42,266 nt of DNA. Origin: Erysipelotrichaceae bacterium (GTDB taxonomy: Bacteria > Bacillota_I > Bacilli_A > RFN20 > CAG-631). The stretch is from assembly GCA_022767485.1 (NCBI GenBank), contig JALEMY010000039.1:1-42266 (forward strand). Reading direction: 5' to 3'. How positions within the stretch are numbered: position 1 is the first letter of the stretch; every line of letters starts with the position of its first letter. The notes below the pieces were generated by a model. That model was given only the letters and a program-made list of their open reading frames with translations. It ran no database searches and was not told the origin of the DNA. Of this stretch, positions 3,549 to 26,085 are shown in pieces. The position numbers and the translations under genes are program-made.

Positions 3549-5570
3549 TTATAGTTTAACTAATTCTCCACCATTTTCTCTTGATTTTTCTGCGGCAAAG
3601 GCCATTAGATGAGATTGTATAGAACATGAAAGACTAGTTTCTTGAATTTCTTTATTATCAACAATCATACGATAGAAATAATTCATCATATGAATATCGC
3701 CACCACCATGTCCTCTAAGTTCATTAGTTAATTCGCTAATTGTCCATTTTTGATCTTGCCCATTATAAACATTTAAAGTGATTGTTCCTGCTGGTTCATC
3801 ATATATAATATCACCCATCGTTCCAAAAAAGTGAGCATATCTTCCAGAATATTTACTAAATGCCGTCATCTTTAAATTGGCGCTAACGCCGTTTTTAAAC
3901 AAAATGTTAACTGATTGACTATCAACCACATCGTTATCACAATAAAATACACAACGTCCATAAGGTCCTTTTTTGATTGCTTCCATTAAAGTATCTTCAC
4001 TTAATGTTTCATCAGTTAAAACATTGTAAGGCCAACAATTTTTTGGTGAACCATCAATTTTCCATTTTTTAATGTAAATATTATATGCTGAGTATGGACA
4101 TGTTTCTACATGTGGACAATCAAGACATCTTCTTTTTGCGCCTTTTGGTGCATGCTTTGCATTAAAGAAATTTAGTTTTCCAAATGAACTTATTGAATCA
4201 CACTCGCTATTTGCAAACCATTGAAGTAAGTCTAAGTCATGACAACACTTAGCTAAAATCATCGGAGCAGTATCTTCCTTTTTACGCCAGTTACCACGTA
4301 CGAAGCTATGCGCTTGATGCCAATATGTAACATTTTCTAAATGATCGATAGATACAAGTTCACCAATAGCTTTATTATTCAATAATTCTTTAATCTTTTG
4401 CATGGCAACCGTATATCTTAAAACATGACATACAAGAATTTTTACTTTCTTTTTATCAGCAGCCTCTTGAAGCATATATAATTCTTCTTCATTTGCAGTA
4501 ATTGGTTTTTCAAGAAGAATATGATAATTTAACTCAATAGCTTTAAGAGCATGCCTTACATGATCTTGATCAAGAGTAGATATCACAATAAAATCAGCTC
4601 TTTTTTCTTTAAAGAACTCATTTTCATCAACAAAGCATTGACTTTCATCAACCATAAATTCTCTTTGATATTTTTTAAGTCTATCAGGTTTTATTTCGCA
4701 AAGAGCAGATATTTTAAACATATCAGGTCTTTCCATAAAATAACGACCATATGTTTCACCGCCACGTGAACCAACGCCAATAATTGCCGCTTTTAAAACT
4801 CTGTCAACTTTAACATTTGATTTGCCTTCTGCTTCCTTATCAACAATTTCTGCTAAAAAGACAAATGATGCCACGCTATTAGCAGCAGAGACAGCTTGAG
4901 ATTTGTTTTTATATGCTTCTGATAAAACTATACATCTTCCAGATGAAGTATATAATTTAAATTGATAAGTTTTATTCTTATCACAAACAACAACAAATCT
5001 TCCATCTTTGATTGCCCCTTTAAATGCTTCTATTCCATTGTTCATAGATTGTCTTGAAGTATATTCGTTAGATGAGCAAAGTAAAACACCATTGCTTGCA
5101 ACTAATTTAAATTCATAAATATCATCGGTAACAGAAGTGATAATCTTTCCACCTTTTTTTGCTGTTTCATTATTAATTTTTATTTCTTCAATTAAATGTT
5201 CTGGATCTTCTTCTAATACTTCAATTGGAGAAATAGCAGCGAACTTTTTAAAGGAATTTGCAGCTGCTTCACATCCTTGTTGTGATGTATAATTTGCTGA
5301 TACTACAAGCAATCTTTTGTTTTGGGCAAACAATTTGAATTGCCATAAATTATGTTTATCTTTATAAATTAAAATAGTTCCATTATCGATACTTTTCTTT
5401 ACTGTTTCAATTGCTAAAACAGCACCTTTTTCTGATTTGTATATTTCTGAAACAACTAATATTTCTCCATTTGATGCTTTTAAACGATATAGATACATAT
5501 CATTAACATGGAAAATCTCATATTTACCTAAAACAACACGATTGGTTTTTGCATTTTCTACTTTAGCCAT
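3549..5570 (-). CDS. Gfo/Idh/MocA-family oxidoreductase with N-terminal tandem DUF1508 (YegP-like) repeats
   Basis: Residues ~1-255 contain four copies of an F/YxFxLxAxNGxxLxxSexYxSxxxAxxxIxxxK pattern; residues ~258 onward VLKAAIIGVGSRGGETYGRYFMERPDMFKISALCEI Rossmann start, LLEKPITAN motif, Cys cluster RRCLDCPHVETCPYSAY. Confidence 0.85.
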   Translation of the reverse strand: MAKVENAKTNRVVLGKYEIFHVNDMYLYRLKASNGEILVVSEIYKSEKGAVLAIETVKKSIDNGTILIYKDKHNLWQFKLFAQNKRLLVVSANYTSQQGCEAAANSFKKFAAISPIEVLEEDPEHLIEEIKINNETAKKGGKIITSVTDDIYEFKLVASNGVLLCSSNEYTSRQSMNNGIEAFKGAIKDGRFVVVCDKNKTYQFKLYTSSGRCIVLSEAYKNKSQAVSAANSVASFVFLAEIVDKEAEGKSNVKVDRVLKAAIIGVGSRGGETYGRYFMERPDMFKISALCEIKPDRLKKYQREFMVDESQCFVDENEFFKEKRADFIVISTLDQDHVRHALKAIELNYHILLEKPITANEEELYMLQEAADKKKVKILVCHVLRYTVAMQKIKELLNNKAIGELVSIDHLENVTYWHQAHSFVRGNWRKKEDTAPMILAKCCHDLDLLQWFANSECDSISSFGKLNFFNAKHAPKGAKRRCLDCPHVETCPYSAYNIYIKKWKIDGSPKNCWPYNVLTDETLSEDTLMEAIKKGPYGRCVFYCDNDVVDSQSVNILFKNGVSANLKMTAFSKYSGRYAHFFGTMGDIIYDEPAGTITLNVYNGQDQKWTISELTNELRGHGGGDIHMMNYFYRMIVDNKEIQETSLSCSIQSHLMAFAAEKSRENGGELVKL

Positions 5571-5716
5571 TTTGATTTTATTCCTCCATATTTCATAACT
5601 TTCTTACTATATTATAGCAAAACAAAATTATTATTAAATAATTTTTGGCAAAAATATGAATATTGTCTTTATTTTGTGTTAGAATAAAACATGTAACAAA
5701 AAGGAGATGTTAAATT

Positions 5717-6886
5717 ATGATTAAAGTCGATGTTATTTCTGGGTTTTTAGGAGCTGGAAAAACTACTCTTATCAAAAAAATATTTGAATCAGTATTAGAA
5801 AAAGAAAAAGTTGTTTTAATTGAAAACGAATTTGGTGAAATTGGAATCGATAGTACTTTTTTAAAGGACTCTAATATCCAAATTCAAGAAATAAATGCTG
5901 GCTGCATTTGTTGCTCTTTAGTAGGAGACTTTGCTTCTTCTATGAAAGAAGTAATCGACAGATTTGCACCAGAAAGAATTATTATTGAGCCTTCTGGAGT
6001 TGGCAAATTGTCCGATATTGTTAATGCTGTTTTAAAACTTGAAGAAGATGTTAAAATTAATATTTTAGCAACTGTTGTTGATGGCGTTAAAACAAAAATG
6101 TATTTAAAGAACTTTGGTGAATTTTTTAATAATCAAGTCGAAGCAGCTAATACAATTGTTATTAGCAAAACCGATAAAATGAGTGAAGACAAAATTGAAG
6201 AAGTAGTCAATTTAGTAAAAGAGAAAAACAATCATGCTACTTTAATTACAACACCAATTCAACAATTAGATAGTAAACAATTAGTAGATGTTTTAGAACA
6301 AAAAGTATCATTGAAAGATGAATTAATAAAAGAAATGCAATATGTTCATGAGCACGAAAATGATGAATGTTGTTGCAATCATGAACACCATCACGATGAT
6401 GATGAATGCTGTTGTCATCATGAACACCATCACGACGATGATGAATGTTGTTGCAATCATGAACATCACCACGATGATGATGAATGCTGTTGCAATCACG
6501 AACACCATCACGACGATGATGAATGTTGTTGCAATCACGAACACCACCACGATGATGATGAATGTTGTTGTAATCATGAACATCATCATCATGATGCAGA
6601 TGAAGTATTTACAAGCTATGGAAAAGAAACTACACGCTCTTATTCACATGATGAATTAAGTAATATTTTATCCACTTTAGCAAACGATGATTCTCTTGGT
6701 ATTATAATTCGTTCTAAGGGTGTTATAAAAGCTAGTGATAATGATAACTGGTATTATTTTGATTTCGTTTCTGGTGATTTTGAAATACGTCTTGGAAGAC
6801 CTGATTATATCGGTCGTATCGTTGTTATTGGATCTCACATTAACGAAGAAAAAATCGAATCTTTGTTTTTTAAAAAAGGTGAATAA
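5717..6886 (+). CDS. CobW/COG0523 family GTPase (putative metallochaperone) with internal Cys/His/Asp repeat region
   Basis: GFLGAGKTTLI Walker A, ENEFGEIGID, INAGCICCSL (CXCC metal site), IIIEPSGVG, ISKTDK; six 13-aa DECCCNHEHHHDD repeats; CobW C-terminal domain RSKGVIKASDNDNWYYFDFVSG. Confidence 0.93.
   Translation: MIKVDVISGFLGAGKTTLIKKIFESVLEKEKVVLIENEFGEIGIDSTFLKDSNIQIQEINAGCICCSLVGDFASSMKEVIDRFAPERIIIEPSGVGKLSDIVNAVLKLEEDVKINILATVVDGVKTKMYLKNFGEFFNNQVEAANTIVISKTDKMSEDKIEEVVNLVKEKNNHATLITTPIQQLDSKQLVDVLEQKVSLKDELIKEMQYVHEHENDECCCNHEHHHDDDECCCHHEHHHDDDECCCNHEHHHDDDECCCNHEHHHDDDECCCNHEHHHDDDECCCNHEHHHHDADEVFTSYGKETTRSYSHDELSNILSTLANDDSLGIIIRSKGVIKASDNDNWYYFDFVSGDFEIRLGRPDYIGRIVVIGSHINEEKIESLFFKKGE
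6362..6598 (+). repeat. Six tandem in-frame 39-bp repeats encoding DECCC(N/H)HEHHHDD
   Basis: gatgaatgttgttgcaatcatgaacaccatcacgatgat-type units, counted directly in sequence. Confidence 0.95.
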
Positions 6887-6888
6887 TT

Positions 6889-7836
6889 ATGCTTAATACA
6901 ATCCCTACCTATGTTATCTCAGGCTTTTTAGAATCTGGGAAAACAACCTTCATTAAAGACACCATTGCTTCTGATGATTTTTTTAAAAAAGGTAAAACCC
7001 TTATTCTTTCTGGGGAAGAAGGAGAAGTAGAATATGAGTCTTCTTTTTTAAAACACTATAATTGTGAAGTTTATTATTTTGATAAACAAGAAGATTTTAA
7101 TGCTCTTGCTTTGCAAAAAATAGTAAATGATGTAAAGCCGCAAAGAATCGTTATTGAATTAAATGGAATGTGGGATTTATCATTAATAGAATTTCCTGCA
7201 AACTTTAAGATATATCAGTTTATCAATTTTATTAACTACGTTTCTTTCCCAATTTATTTTGCAAACATGAGACAAAAATATTTAGATACAATAAAGCAAT
7301 CTGATGTTGTTGTCTTCATTAATGTCAAGGATGAACAACTTGATGAATTAGACAGTTATTCGTCATCATTTAAATTGACTAATTCTGCCGCACAATATAT
7401 GGTCATGGATGAAAATGGTCAATTAAAAGATGCCTTTAAAGTAGTTCTTCCATTTGATATAAATGCTCCTATTATAAAAATTAAAGATGATGATTATGGT
7501 ATTTGGTATATCGATACCTTTGATCATAAAGAAAACTATCAAGACAAAATTGTGGATATGAATGTTATGGTTGTAAAATCAAGTAAACTTCCAAAAGATA
7601 GTTTTGTAGCAGGAAGACTTGCTATGACTTGTTGTAGCAATGACATTCAATTATATGGCCATTTATGTTTAAATAACTTAAAAATTAAACTACCTGATCG
7701 TTGCTTTATTCATTTAGTTGCTAAAGTATCTTTTGAATATTCAAAGCAATACGATGAAGAAGAATGTGTATTAACTGCTTTATCAATTGAAAAGATTGCA
7801 CCATTGAGTAATCCTGTTTTAGATTTAACCAAGTAA
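6889..7836 (+). CDS. CobW-like P-loop GTPase-domain protein with C-terminal YcgQ/DUF1980 (TIGR03943)-like segment
   Basis: VISGFLESGKTTFIKDTI P-loop; RIVIELNGMWDL; no CXCC; C-terminal DSFVAGRLAMTCCSNDIQLYGHLC...ALSIEKIAPLSNPVL resembles the DUF1980 C-terminal FxxxRxxxTCCxxD...G pattern. Confidence 0.75.
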   Translation: MLNTIPTYVISGFLESGKTTFIKDTIASDDFFKKGKTLILSGEEGEVEYESSFLKHYNCEVYYFDKQEDFNALALQKIVNDVKPQRIVIELNGMWDLSLIEFPANFKIYQFINFINYVSFPIYFANMRQKYLDTIKQSDVVVFINVKDEQLDELDSYSSSFKLTNSAAQYMVMDENGQLKDAFKVVLPFDINAPIIKIKDDDYGIWYIDTFDHKENYQDKIVDMNVMVVKSSKLPKDSFVAGRLAMTCCSNDIQLYGHLCLNNLKIKLPDRCFIHLVAKVSFEYSKQYDEEECVLTALSIEKIAPLSNPVLDLTK

Positions 7837-11931: not shown

Positions 11932-14313
11932 TTATGCTTTAATTGTACTTTCACTTTCTAAGAAGTGACGAATATTAGAAACGTTTTCAATCAATTCAAC
12001 TTCGCCATTTTTAACAACAACTAATGTTGGAGCTTGACGAACATTTAATTGTTTAGCAAGTTCTACATTGTCATTAGCTAATACTTCTTTAAATTCTACA
12101 TTTGCTTGGTTTAAGAAGTTTTTCGCCATTTTACAATTTGGACATGTTGTTGTAGCAAATAAATATGTGCCATCATCTAATATGCATGTAGATACATTAA
12201 CTTCTTCTTCATTAACATTACGAGGAGTAAATTTAGCTAAAGAGCTAGGAATATCATATTCTTTACGATCTTTATATTCTTGTGTTTTTCCATCATTCCA
12301 GTTTTGAATTGGTCTATAATATCCAGTAATTCTACTATAAACTTCTGTCTTTTTACCACAAATTGGACATGAGAAATGTTCTCCTGTAATATAGCCGTGT
12401 TCTTGACATACTGAATATGTTGGAGACATAGTGTAATATGGAAGTTTATAATTTTCAGCAATTTTACGAACTAAGTTAGCTGCTGCTTTCCAATCTGGAA
12501 GTTTTTCACCTAAGAAAGCATGGAAAACTGTTCCTGAAGTATATAATGTTTGCATCTTATCTTGAATATCTAAAGCGGCAAAGATATCATCGCTAAAGCC
12601 AACTGGAAGGTGTGAACTATTTGTATAATATGGAGTTTCTCCTTCTTTTGCTGCTGTGATAATATCTGGATAACGTTTCTTATCGTGTTTTGCTAAACGA
12701 TATGTTGTTGATTCTGCAGGTGTAGCTTCAAGATTATATAAATCACCATATTGTTCTTGATAATCAGATAGACGATTACGCATATGATTTAAAACTTTAA
12801 CTACAAAATCTTGTGTTTCTTTATTTGTTAAATCTTTTCTTAGCCATTTAGCATTTAAACCAACTTCATTCATACCAATTAAGCCAATTGTTGAGAAGTG
12901 GTTGTTAAATGTTCCAAGATATCTTTTTGTATATGGATATAAACCAGCTTCTAGTAATTGAGTAATAACTTCTCTTTTAACTTTCAATGAACGAGCAGAA
13001 ATATCCATAATCTTATCTAAACGTTTAAAGAAATCTTCTTCATCGTTTGCAAGATAAGCAATACGAGGCATATTGATAGTAACAACACCAACAGAACCTG
13101 TTGATTCACCACTACCAAAGAAACCACCAGATTTCTTTCTAAGTTCACGAAGGTCAAGTCTTAAACGACAACACATACTACGAACATCACTAGGTTCCAT
13201 ATCACTATTGATATAATTTGAAAAATAAGGAGTTCCATATTTTGCTGTCATTTCAAATAATAAACGATTGTTTTCTGTATCAGACCAGTCAAAGTTTTTA
13301 GTAATTGAATAAGTAGGAATTGGATATTGGAAACCTCTACCATTAGCATCGCCTTCAATCATAGTTTCAATGAAAGCTTTATTTACCATATCCATTTCTT
13401 TTTGACAATCTTTATATTTAAAGTCGCACTCTTTACCACCAACGATAGCGTTTAATTCAGCAAGGTCATTTGGTACAACCCAGTCTAATGTAATATTAGT
13501 AAATGGTGCTTGTGTTCCCCAACGAGATGGTGTATTAACACCATAAATGAAAGATTGAACACATTGTTTAACTTGTTTGTATGTTAAGTTATCAACCTTA
13601 ACAAATGGAGCTAAATAAGTATCAAATGATGAGAATGCTTGTGCACCAGCCCACTCATTTTGCATAATACCTAAAAAGTTAACCATTTGATTACATAAAG
13701 TTGATAAATGTTTAGCAGGAGATGAAGTAATTTTTCCAGGGACTCCTCCTAAGCCTTCTTTAATTAATTGCTTTAATGACCAACCAGCACAATAACCTGT
13801 AAGCATTGATAAATCGTGAAGATGAATATCGCCATTTCTATGAGCATTAGCAATTTCATCATCATATACTTCAGATAACCAATAATTTGCTGTAATTGCT
13901 CCAGAGTTTGATAAAATCAAGCCACCTACTGAGTACGTAACAGTTGAATTTTCTTTAACTCTCCAGTCGTTAATTTTTAAATAATTATCAACTAATGATT
14001 TATAATCAAGTAAGGTATTTTTAGCTTTTCTTACATTTTCATGTTGACGACGATATAAAATATAAGCTTTAGCAACATCATCATATCCCGCTTGGATCAA
14101 AACAGTTTCTACGCTATCTTGAATGTCTTCAACAGAAACTCTAGCATCTTTAATTTTGCCTTGAAAATGTGCAGTAACTTTCAAAGCTAAGAAATCTATT
14201 GTTTCGTCTGTATATTCTTTTTTCACTGCATCAAAAGCTTTTCTGATTGCATTTATAATCTTATCTAAATTAAATTCTTTAATTGTCCCATCTCTTTTAA
14301 CTACGCTATACAT
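11932..14313 (-). CDS. nrdD: Anaerobic (class III) ribonucleoside-triphosphate reductase with C-terminal thioredoxin/glutaredoxin-like domain
   Basis: ATP-cone N-terminus (VVKRDGTIKEFNLDKI), CPICGKK zinc site, RITGYYRPIQNWNDGKTQEYKDRKEY glycyl-radical region, then TYLFATTTCPNCKMAKNFLNQANVEFKEV...VRQAPTLVVVKNGE Trx/Grx-like fold. Confidence 0.95.
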   Translation of the reverse strand: MYSVVKRDGTIKEFNLDKIINAIRKAFDAVKKEYTDETIDFLALKVTAHFQGKIKDARVSVEDIQDSVETVLIQAGYDDVAKAYILYRRQHENVRKAKNTLLDYKSLVDNYLKINDWRVKENSTVTYSVGGLILSNSGAITANYWLSEVYDDEIANAHRNGDIHLHDLSMLTGYCAGWSLKQLIKEGLGGVPGKITSSPAKHLSTLCNQMVNFLGIMQNEWAGAQAFSSFDTYLAPFVKVDNLTYKQVKQCVQSFIYGVNTPSRWGTQAPFTNITLDWVVPNDLAELNAIVGGKECDFKYKDCQKEMDMVNKAFIETMIEGDANGRGFQYPIPTYSITKNFDWSDTENNRLLFEMTAKYGTPYFSNYINSDMEPSDVRSMCCRLRLDLRELRKKSGGFFGSGESTGSVGVVTINMPRIAYLANDEEDFFKRLDKIMDISARSLKVKREVITQLLEAGLYPYTKRYLGTFNNHFSTIGLIGMNEVGLNAKWLRKDLTNKETQDFVVKVLNHMRNRLSDYQEQYGDLYNLEATPAESTTYRLAKHDKKRYPDIITAAKEGETPYYTNSSHLPVGFSDDIFAALDIQDKMQTLYTSGTVFHAFLGEKLPDWKAAANLVRKIAENYKLPYYTMSPTYSVCQEHGYITGEHFSCPICGKKTEVYSRITGYYRPIQNWNDGKTQEYKDRKEYDIPSSLAKFTPRNVNEEEVNVSTCILDDGTYLFATTTCPNCKMAKNFLNQANVEFKEVLANDNVELAKQLNVRQAPTLVVVKNGEVELIENVSNIRHFLESESTIKA

Positions 14314-23291: not shown

Positions 23292-26072
23292 TTAAAAGCC
23301 CTCCATTTCTTCTTTTTGTTTTTTCTTTGCTTTTATGCTATTTCTAACTTTATTAATTGGCGCAAATAGTTTTGCAAAAAAGTTGCTGATTTCATTGACA
23401 TGGAAGAATTCACGAATCTTTGCTTTACGTTGATTCTTCTTTCTTTTTGCCTCTTCGATTTCTTCATAATTCTTATCTTTAGAAATGAATTCACGTTCTC
23501 TAAATAGTAAAAATGAGACTAAAACAAATAATAAGACGATTAATGCTTGAATCCACGCTTCAAGAGAAATAATACCCATATTAAAACTATTGTCGTTCAT
23601 CTGATTATCTATCGTTGAGTTGATTGGGTTGACAGATGAAATACCAATTGATGAAACTTGCATTATAGTAAATAAACATACAATTAAAATAACAGATTTT
23701 ATTAAAGGATAAGTGATCGCCCAAAGCATTTGCCATTTATTTGCACCATCTATTTCTGCCGCTTCGTATAATTGTCTATTAATTTTTTGAAGAGCTGAAA
23801 TAAATAAAACAATAGGTACCCCTGTCATCCATAAAATAATGATGAAATTGCCAAATATGTTGTTAGCAAAAGTTAAAGCTTTAGGTGACAAAGCCTGTAA
23901 TATGTTAGCAAAAGTCGAACCATCTAGCGTTAACATAATGGATGACTCACCAGATGAGTTACTTTTATTTAGCATTGTCAATACAGGTCCTGAGACAATA
24001 ACAACCGGTAAGAAGTAAATTAATCTAAAGAATGTACGTCCTTTTATTTTTGTGTTTAATAACATTGCTAATACAAAACTTATAAATACGACAATTGGCA
24101 CATAAAATATTAAGTTTTTAAAGAATGTTGGAACTTGTTGGAAAGTAAAAGTAGAACTCTTTAAAAATAAAGTCTCTAGATTTTCTTTGCCTGTCCAGTT
24201 AGGAAAAGTTAAGCCGTTTTTAAATGAAAATGATACCAAAGCTGGATAGCCATCAGTAACTGTCCATTCAGAATGTGAAAAACATAGTATGATAGAATAT
24301 AAAATTGGATATAAAGTAAATACTATAAAACCAATTGCCCAAATACTTAAGAAGATATATCCAAGTTTGTTTTCTTTTGCTCTTGCTGTAACATCTTTAT
24401 GATATTTAGCTGAGCTATATTCTTTACGAATATTGTGCATAAACAATTTGTTTTCTTGTCTATGAAGTGCTTTTTTCTCCTTAAGCTTTAATTTATAATC
24501 TTTTTGATAAGATAATACTTCTGGATTTTCACTTTTAAACTTAGCGATACTATTTCTTTGATTTTCTTTTTTAATCTTGTTTAAATAAACTAAAATCGCT
24601 TTGAAATAACGAGACAACTCTTTTGATCTTATTTCTTTTTTATAAAGTCTCAATACTTCTTTCATTTCGGCATTTTTTGTAGAATCAGCCACTTTAGATG
24701 CTGTTTTAACATACGCTTTTTGCTTGATGTAGTTTTCTTTTCTTTGTTTTCTATCTTCTTTAATATCCTTAAATGATTGAACTAATTCTTGTTTTATTTT
24801 AACTTTGTTTTCTTTATGCTCTTCACCTATTTGTTTATTAATATCACCATTTGCTGTAATATTTGCAATAGCTTTTAAATACTTATTGTTAGCTTTAATA
24901 TAATCATTTTTGATTTTACTATCGACATTTACGCTATTAGTAAGACGATATTCATAGCATTCTTTTTCGTATTTTTTTTCTTCGTCTTCATAATAATCAT
25001 AAAAATAAGGGCATTTTTGAAGAACATAATCTTTTATGCTTTGAAAAATCATAGCAAAAGCGTCTTTTAATGAGCCTTTGAAACTACGAGAAATGCAATC
25101 TAAAACATTTTGTTTTAATGCATCTTCACTAGTAGTAGAAATAATAACATCATTTTCTTTTGTTGCTCTTATTGAATCCATCAATTCCTTAGCTTTATGC
25201 AACAATGTTTCATTTTGCTTAGAAATTTCTATAATATTATGGTCGTTTGTAGCAATTTCTTTTAAAAGTTCTTCTCTTTCAGAAGCTACATCCAACCCTT
25301 CTTTTTCTTGTTCTTTTAATATATCAAGGTCGATTTTCTTATAAACGTTATCAATCAATATCTTTTCTTTTTCTTTGCATTGATTAATTATAGTTTTTAT
25401 TATACTTAAAACGCTTTTTTTGCTTTCTTTTGAAAAGACAATTTGATTAGTCTCATCAATCGCTTTAAAAATCAACTCATTGAATTGTTCAATATCTTTT
25501 TTAGTTTCTTGTAACTTTTCTTGGTGGTTTATGCAAGTTTGTTGATAAAAATCCTGGAAAGATTTTTCATTTAATCTAACAGCATCTTTATTATTTTCAT
25601 AAATTTTTTCAACTAACTTATCGTATTGAAGCTTATAAGCTATTTCATCTTCCTTACATTTTTCATACCAAGAAGCCTTATTTTGTAAAACGCGATATTC
25701 GTTTTCATAAGATGTTAATGTGGCACGATTTTTAGCAATAATCTTATGAATAGACTCTTTGAATACACTGTCTTTTTCCGATTTTATAAAAGTCATACCA
25801 ATGCGGGAAAGCTTATAAACATTTTTATAAAACGTAGCCTCACATGCTAAAGAATTTGAAGAAAACAAGGCATCGATATTTTCTTTTAATGCTTCTTTAT
25901 GGGCATTATATAATTGCTCTTGAAGTGATAAAGGACGAAATGTAACTAAACATTTATAATTTGTAATTTCTTCATTTATTTTATCTTTTATTTTACTTAC
26001 TTCATGTTCAGCAATTTTTAAAGAAACTTCATAAGATTGTTGTGCTTTAATACTCAATTCATTTTTAACCAT
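23292..26072 (-). CDS. Sugar ABC transporter permease, MalF type, with ~570-aa N-terminal coiled-coil extension
   Basis: C-terminal ~360 aa: TMs plus EAA loop LYEAAEIDGANKWQMLWAITYPLIKS; N-terminal ~570 aa Lys/Glu-rich with long helices; start ATG 26072 after GGGGGGTG RBS. Confidence 0.88.
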   Translation of the reverse strand: MVKNELSIKAQQSYEVSLKIAEHEVSKIKDKINEEITNYKCLVTFRPLSLQEQLYNAHKEALKENIDALFSSNSLACEATFYKNVYKLSRIGMTFIKSEKDSVFKESIHKIIAKNRATLTSYENEYRVLQNKASWYEKCKEDEIAYKLQYDKLVEKIYENNKDAVRLNEKSFQDFYQQTCINHQEKLQETKKDIEQFNELIFKAIDETNQIVFSKESKKSVLSIIKTIINQCKEKEKILIDNVYKKIDLDILKEQEKEGLDVASEREELLKEIATNDHNIIEISKQNETLLHKAKELMDSIRATKENDVIISTTSEDALKQNVLDCISRSFKGSLKDAFAMIFQSIKDYVLQKCPYFYDYYEDEEKKYEKECYEYRLTNSVNVDSKIKNDYIKANNKYLKAIANITANGDINKQIGEEHKENKVKIKQELVQSFKDIKEDRKQRKENYIKQKAYVKTASKVADSTKNAEMKEVLRLYKKEIRSKELSRYFKAILVYLNKIKKENQRNSIAKFKSENPEVLSYQKDYKLKLKEKKALHRQENKLFMHNIRKEYSSAKYHKDVTARAKENKLGYIFLSIWAIGFIVFTLYPILYSIILCFSHSEWTVTDGYPALVSFSFKNGLTFPNWTGKENLETLFLKSSTFTFQQVPTFFKNLIFYVPIVVFISFVLAMLLNTKIKGRTFFRLIYFLPVVIVSGPVLTMLNKSNSSGESSIMLTLDGSTFANILQALSPKALTFANNIFGNFIIILWMTGVPIVLFISALQKINRQLYEAAEIDGANKWQMLWAITYPLIKSVILIVCLFTIMQVSSIGISSVNPINSTIDNQMNDNSFNMGIISLEAWIQALIVLLFVLVSFLLFREREFISKDKNYEEIEEAKRKKNQRKAKIREFFHVNEISNFFAKLFAPINKVRNSIKAKKKQKEEMEGF

Positions 26073-26085
26073 TTTGCACACCCCC

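Follow-up and report, generated by a model that had tools for sequence, protein, structure and literature searches.

The window analyzed here, a stretch of 42,266 nucleotides (contig C108 of a metagenome-assembled genome of 1.69 Mb, 81% completeness and 180 contigs), encodes a CobW-type GTPase in which near-identical units rich in cysteine, histidine and aspartate follow one another in an unbroken row. The locus raises the questions of what such an array contributes to a protein of this family, whether it is peculiar to one genome, and which metal it would handle.

An array between the two domains of a COG0523 GTPase

Based on the presence of a Walker A motif, a GCXCC motif and a CobW_C domain (Table 1), the window protein can be assigned to the COG0523/CobW group of G3E GTPases. 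The Pfam profiles PF02492 cobW (E = 3.9e-36; 124.7 bits, cut-off 20.7) and PF07683 CobW_C (E = 5.4e-8; 33.0 bits, cut-off 22) flank the array, which bears out the gene family and domain position proposed by an earlier, sequence-only reading of this DNA. Across 34 homologues, residues G9-G12 and G14-T17 of the Walker A region and G62, C63, I64, C65 and C66 of the metal motif were invariant. Scores fell far short of the equivalog models for ZigA (NF038288; 72.7 of 600 bits), CobW (TIGR02475; 78.9 of 332 bits) and HypB (TIGR00073; 22.6 of 121 bits). The only sequence relative with a solved structure is E. coli YjiA (1nij, 4ixm and 4ixn, with zinc bound in 4ixm), which was also the best fold match in a Foldseek search (E = 7e-15 for 4ixm and 2e-14 for 1nij), followed by HypB and UreG. 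YjiA is 18% identical to the window protein in the structural alignment and, in contrast to it, has no comparable long Cys/His array. HypB is not known to contain a CobW_C domain.

Table 1 Positions of the features discussed, in window coordinates
Feature	Position	Strand	Basis
Probable ribosome-binding site aaggag, 10 nt ahead of the ATG	5701..5706	+	Read from sequence
COG0523/CobW-type G3E GTPase gene, 389 aa	5717..6886	+	ORF, Pfam, fold match
Walker A motif GFLGAGKT, aa 9-16	5741..5764	+	Sequence, homologue alignment
Metal-binding motif GCICC (COG0523 signature), aa 62-66	5900..5914	+	Sequence, homologue alignment
Six tandem 13-aa Cys/His/Asp units, aa 216-293	6362..6595	+	Tandem Repeats Finder, sequence, AlphaFold
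CobW_C domain, aa 307-384	6635..6868	+	PF07683, AlphaFold model
Partner gene, 315 aa, G3E-like domain without CXCC plus DUF1980_C	6889..7836	+	Pfam
DUF1980_C domain of the partner	7462..7803	+	Profile search, predicted structure
MTCC motif of the partner, aa 246-249	7624..7635	+	Alignment A3

In the AlphaFold model, CobW_C forms a well-folded alpha/beta domain (pLDDT mostly 86-96), and the G-domain is mostly confident except for poor stretches within residues 40-69, near the metal motif. Residues 211-295 had pLDDT values below 50 and were devoid of secondary structure. The array is thus predicted to be disordered, situated between two folded domains.

Six in-frame copies of 39 bp are arranged head to tail with the consensus DECCC[N/H]HEHHH[D/H]D. 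Units 1, 3, 4 and 5 read DECCCNHEHHHDD, unit 2 reads DECCCHHEHHHDD and unit 6 reads DECCCNHEHHHHD. According to Tandem Repeats Finder (period 39, 6.3 copies, 87% match, score 369), this is the strongest tandem array within the window, and residues 211-294 contain 18 Cys and 28 His. The open reading frame and the repeat search confirmed the six DECCC-type units, 18 Cys and more than 20 His that had been claimed for positions 6362-6598, although this span ran one codon beyond the true end at 6595. The periodicity of the linker was 0.85 at a period of 13 residues, a value reached by none of 200 composition shuffles, and its regularity is not a product of chance. Nine of the 39 nucleotide columns differ among the copies, and seven of these are silent T/C differences at third codon positions (binomial p = 0.008 against 1/3 for the silent share). 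This predominance of silent changes indicates that the array is real coding sequence whose amino acids have been retained.

The silent changes that distinguish each copy also speak against a pure assembly artefact, which the earlier reading had considered as a way in which its claim might fail. The copy number itself is less secure, since short-read assemblies often break inside such linkers (G000:C129:1-705, the end of G001:C1, G069:C76/C29 and L091), so that six copies may be a minimum and both the gene and its copy number are under-reported. A match to PF24748 Galaxin_repeat (E = 6e-4, below the cut-off) was dismissed as an effect of composition.

Three other genes were noticed in the window, all on the minus strand. 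Positions 3549-5570 encode DUF1508 domains together with a GFO/IDH/MocA oxidoreductase in one protein, an odd fusion. By eye, 11932-14313 appears to encode an anaerobic ribonucleotide reductase with a C-terminal glutaredoxin- or thioredoxin-like stretch (CPNCKMAKNF), with an apparent thioredoxin reductase and activase as neighbours, and the 929-aa product of 23292-26081 resembles an ABC sugar permease after approximately 580 residues of charged, coiled-coil-like sequence.

Linker composition in the homologues

The window protein had matches in 35 out of 98 genomes, which belong mostly to the same order, some of these matches being of low complexity or belonging to other subfamilies; every full-length orthologue possessed a Cys/His/acid linker. 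Scanning GTDB genomes brought up more than 580 relatives, and the best 80 that were retained include Blautia, Hungatella, Lachnoclostridium, Butyrivibrio, Mediterraneibacter, Faecousia, Traorella and many metagenome-assembled genomes. The linkers of 91 homologues from gut Lachnospiraceae, Oscillospiraceae and Bacilli were compared. Cysteine occurred in 88 of the 91 and at least four cysteines in 75, with CC in 49 and CCC in 22; at least 15 histidines were present in 85. Periodicity exceeded that of all 200 shuffles in 57 of 88 linkers, with periods from 10 to 38 residues and most commonly of 13-15. Composition stayed almost constant (~41% His, 32% Asp+Glu, 10% Cys and 7% Gly), other residues being nearly excluded, and the sequence and length of the units varied. 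The view that the array is an unusual insertion therefore needs correcting: Cys/His/acid linkers, frequently built as regular tandems, are the rule in this clade, including named isolates of Blautia, Hungatella and Lachnoclostridium.

Within this class of linkers, which is found throughout the family in gut Firmicutes, the window array stands out as extreme and very regular. It had the highest Cys density (0.205 among the 91 linkers) and the highest periodicity of the linkers compared, while one homologue (L015) has more cysteines in total (23 in the protein). Repeat units were specific to lineages, such as HDHDHECCGHDHD in L043, HHDHDHECTCGHD in L039 and HECGCGHHHEEHD in L048, and a genome of the same genus (G001) carries the 17-aa unit DHEHHHHDDDDECCCNH instead. 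The exact unit DECCCNHEHHHDD was not encountered outside the window, the closest 13-mer from other sequences agreeing at 10 of 13 positions, whereas the copies inside the window array are 95% alike. Such a difference marks local slippage and homogenisation acting under selection for composition. When a tree was built from the folded domains, the window protein fell into a supported clade of 15 members, 12 of which have CCC. The distribution of CCC over the whole tree required 12 changes, at least eight of them forced by well-supported branches, and such repeated gain and loss is expected if selection acts on ligand chemistry and not on sequence.

The near-identical copies, lineage-specific units and variable lengths are typical of replication slippage, and one could regard the array as nothing but a low-complexity expansion tolerated in an unconstrained linker. 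We consider this very unlikely, because the differences between copies are mostly silent, the His/Cys/acid composition has been retained over 91 homologues, and independent arrays of like chemistry arose repeatedly.

In small comparisons within the same order, one other COG0523 subfamily (L026-L028) had His/Glu/Asp linkers without Cys and another (L021-L025) lacked a long linker. We define a Cys/His-linker COG0523 clade of gut Firmicutes by the Cys/His/acid linker and an adjacent cobW-DUF1980_C gene; both are present in the window, whose CobW protein can accordingly be placed in this clade by sequence. The same genome encodes a second Cys/His-linker COG0523 protein (G000:C129:1-705, L120), which is 52% identical over the matched part and is cut by a contig end within its own CCC-containing linker.

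Distant low-complexity matches in L031-L035 were rejected as homologues, as they are other proteins with His/Cys tails. Among them are small unrelated proteins from related genomes with repeat tails of the CCGHHHH type (L031:1318-1743, L033:1480-1890, L034:1408-1818 and L035:1507-2031), one being HesB/IscA-like and one resembling the C-terminus of MrpORP, which suggests that Cys/His repeat modules arise convergently in unrelated small proteins.

A conserved partner gene

The start codon of a second gene, missed by the earlier reading, lies 2 nt past the CobW stop codon. Its product matches PF02492 (E = 4e-6) and PF21537 (E = 8e-14). Most members of the partner family have a Walker A motif, CXCC occurs in none of 76 sequences, and Cys248 and Cys249 of the MTCC motif are invariant in an alignment of 20 sequences (A3) and 96% conserved in the 76. 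The partner was modelled with confidence (pLDDT 90), its C-terminal domain being predicted as all-beta with OB-fold-like matches. The two genes adjoin each other in 75 of 79 loci, a count that takes in L098, L114 and L115, where the partner is represented by longer relatives. Of the four exceptions, three lie at contig ends, while the fourth (L113) has a changed gene order. The CobW gene is hence one half of a conserved two-gene cassette. Apart from the partner, no client or metal gene stood consistently beside the cassette in the loci compared.

The origin of the partner may be reflected in four basal relatives (L098, L113, L114 and L115), in which CobW stands next to a cobW-ArsP_1 permease protein and a DUF1980 protein, as in the operons of this two-component permease; the full N- plus C-terminal DUF1980 architecture was confirmed in L113-L115. 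Relative to such operons, the window cassette lacks the permease and the N-terminal part of DUF1980, and only cobW-DUF1980_C is left. The partner would result if the G-domain of the first protein became joined to the C-terminal end of the second and both the permease and the N-terminal part of DUF1980 were lost. In a G-domain tree, the partner and permease-fusion G-domains stood apart from the main CobW G-domains (support 100/99), with long branches for the permease fusions, which is consistent with this fusion origin without proving it. A single copy of DUF1980_C and no ArsP_1 permease were found in the window's own genome, as far as it is assembled (81% complete).

The relationship to permease operons, together with the thiol-rich, regular array and its top-ranking Cys density, could also point to a metallothionein-like detoxifying module, attached to a GTPase, that takes up soft metals (Cu, Cd, Zn) present in excess or at toxic levels. 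This is unlikely, as a passive sink would need neither the strictly conserved GTPase core and GCICC motif nor the well-conserved CobW_C domain, no efflux or resistance gene is linked to the cassette, and ArsP_1 did not turn up in the incompletely assembled genome.

Probable cargo and a proposed role for the array

Histidine-rich regions occur in about 40% of 887 COG0523 proteins (PMC2770081, Haas et al. 2009). The members with His-rich linkers, such as YciC/ZagA, ZigA and plant ZNG2, share with the window protein the G3E GTPase, GCXCC and CobW_C and have a stretch rich in metal ligands near the C-terminus. These documented stretches are His-rich, whereas the window array is a regular 13-aa tandem with CCC in every unit, and the ZigA score excludes the window protein from that equivalog. 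Multi-ion arms are also known from HypB of Bradyrhizobium japonicum and Rhizobium leguminosarum, another G3E GTPase, for which storage or buffering was proposed (24 His and 9 Ni per monomer in B. japonicum; PMC7055735), although that arm is N-terminal and bears His only, and the window array is internal and Cys-bearing. The unstructured C-terminal tail of SlyD in E. coli and H. pylori is rich in His, Cys, Asp and Glu and binds several Ni or Zn ions, up to 7 Ni in E. coli (PMC7055735), but belongs to an FKBP prolyl isomerase, and the window array differs in being a tandem repeat inside its protein. By analogy with these ion counts, the window array could hold several ions per monomer. As ligands, each unit offers the thiolates of three Cys, the imidazoles of four to five His and several carboxylates, which leads to the same expectation. 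The earlier suggestion of a metal store or buffer thus gains support from the conserved composition of the 91 linkers and from the HypB and SlyD analogues.

We propose, with a probability of roughly 0.6, that the protein works as a metallochaperone or insertase of the COG0523 group whose disordered, high-capacity array holds metal, likely zinc, and feeds the GCICC site. The array would form an arm joining the GTPase core to CobW_C, the domain presumed to face and bind the client, and this position suits loading or buffering. The arm would buffer metal and then supply GCICC, from where GTP hydrolysis would drive the metal to a client. The partner may serve this pathway too, its possible roles being those of metal donor, metal acceptor or GTPase partner.

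The same architecture could instead serve as a Ni or Co store for hydrogenase, urease or B12 maturation, comparable to His-rich HypB, since His-rich arms of related G3E GTPases store Ni (PMC7055735) and the window fold resembles HypB and UreG. This appears improbable. The HypB and CobW equivalog scores were far below their cut-offs, and of 15 cassette-bearing genomes, only two had HypA and only two a B12-binding domain above the cut-off, so that clients in Ni-hydrogenase or B12/Co maturation are unlikely as a general role; neither was found in the window's genome, an absence that counts weakly as this genome is incomplete. Based on such elimination and on family knowledge (PMC2770081, PMC9164220), the cargo is most likely Zn(II). 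A zinc link of DUF1980/ArsP_1 systems is further suggested by the binding of Zur to the promoter of the ArsP_1 permease operon BAS1632 in B. anthracis (PMC6336718).

In the window's genome, a Fur-family gene is divergent from znuABC (L130, G000:C164:5000-11000), which also counts in favour of zinc, and the two TGCAAATNATTTGCA palindromes between it and znuA are a candidate Zur operator for the lineage. Regulation of the window operon by Zur was rejected: the 220 bp upstream contained no site with fewer than five mismatches to either Zur-type pattern, searches with the Zur box of B. subtilis, a Fur box and the local TGCAAATNATTTGCA upstream of the window gene and its homologues gave no support, and no Zur-like operator was conserved upstream of the homologues. 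The only near-match to the B. subtilis Zur box, TTATAATTATTACGA with two mismatches, lies approximately 80 bp upstream of the paralog L120 (C129) and is weak given that the genome is AT-rich and a control pattern matches more often than the real one.

Cysteine-rich linkers are found here in gut anaerobes, and CCC runs with His are able, by general chemistry, to bind several soft ions, so that a thiol-rich arm might carry Fe-S or Cu(I) or be a redox or polysulfide module peculiar to anaerobes. As the cassette includes neither a redox nor an Fe-S partner gene, we regard this as hardly probable. A more specific and tentative reading, possible but doubtful, describes a two-GTPase delivery cassette of gut Firmicutes in which array copy number would set metal capacity, slippage would remake the unit while its ligand chemistry stays constant, and the soluble G3E-DUF1980_C protein, a re-used remnant of the ArsP_1/DUF1980 permease operon, would be the metal donor or acceptor of the array.

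The full-text literature, with partial coverage of reviews, yielded nothing on Cys-rich or tandem-repeat linkers in CobW/COG0523 proteins beyond a flexible cysteine-rich loop of plant ZNG1, which we take to be a different feature. Provisionally, we found no prior description of Cys-bearing tandem linkers, common as they are in the clade, or of the two-gene cassette; a common documented linker was the other outcome that was to count against the earlier claim. The pattern across the clade is of more interest than the window gene, which is one member. Composition is kept while sequence turns over, making these linkers a clean case of selection on chemistry and not on sequence. Both scarcity and excess of metals matter in the gut, and the intracellular metal distribution of commensal Firmicutes is poorly known; a countable, modular arm in a widespread cassette would permit a direct test of copy number against metal capacity.
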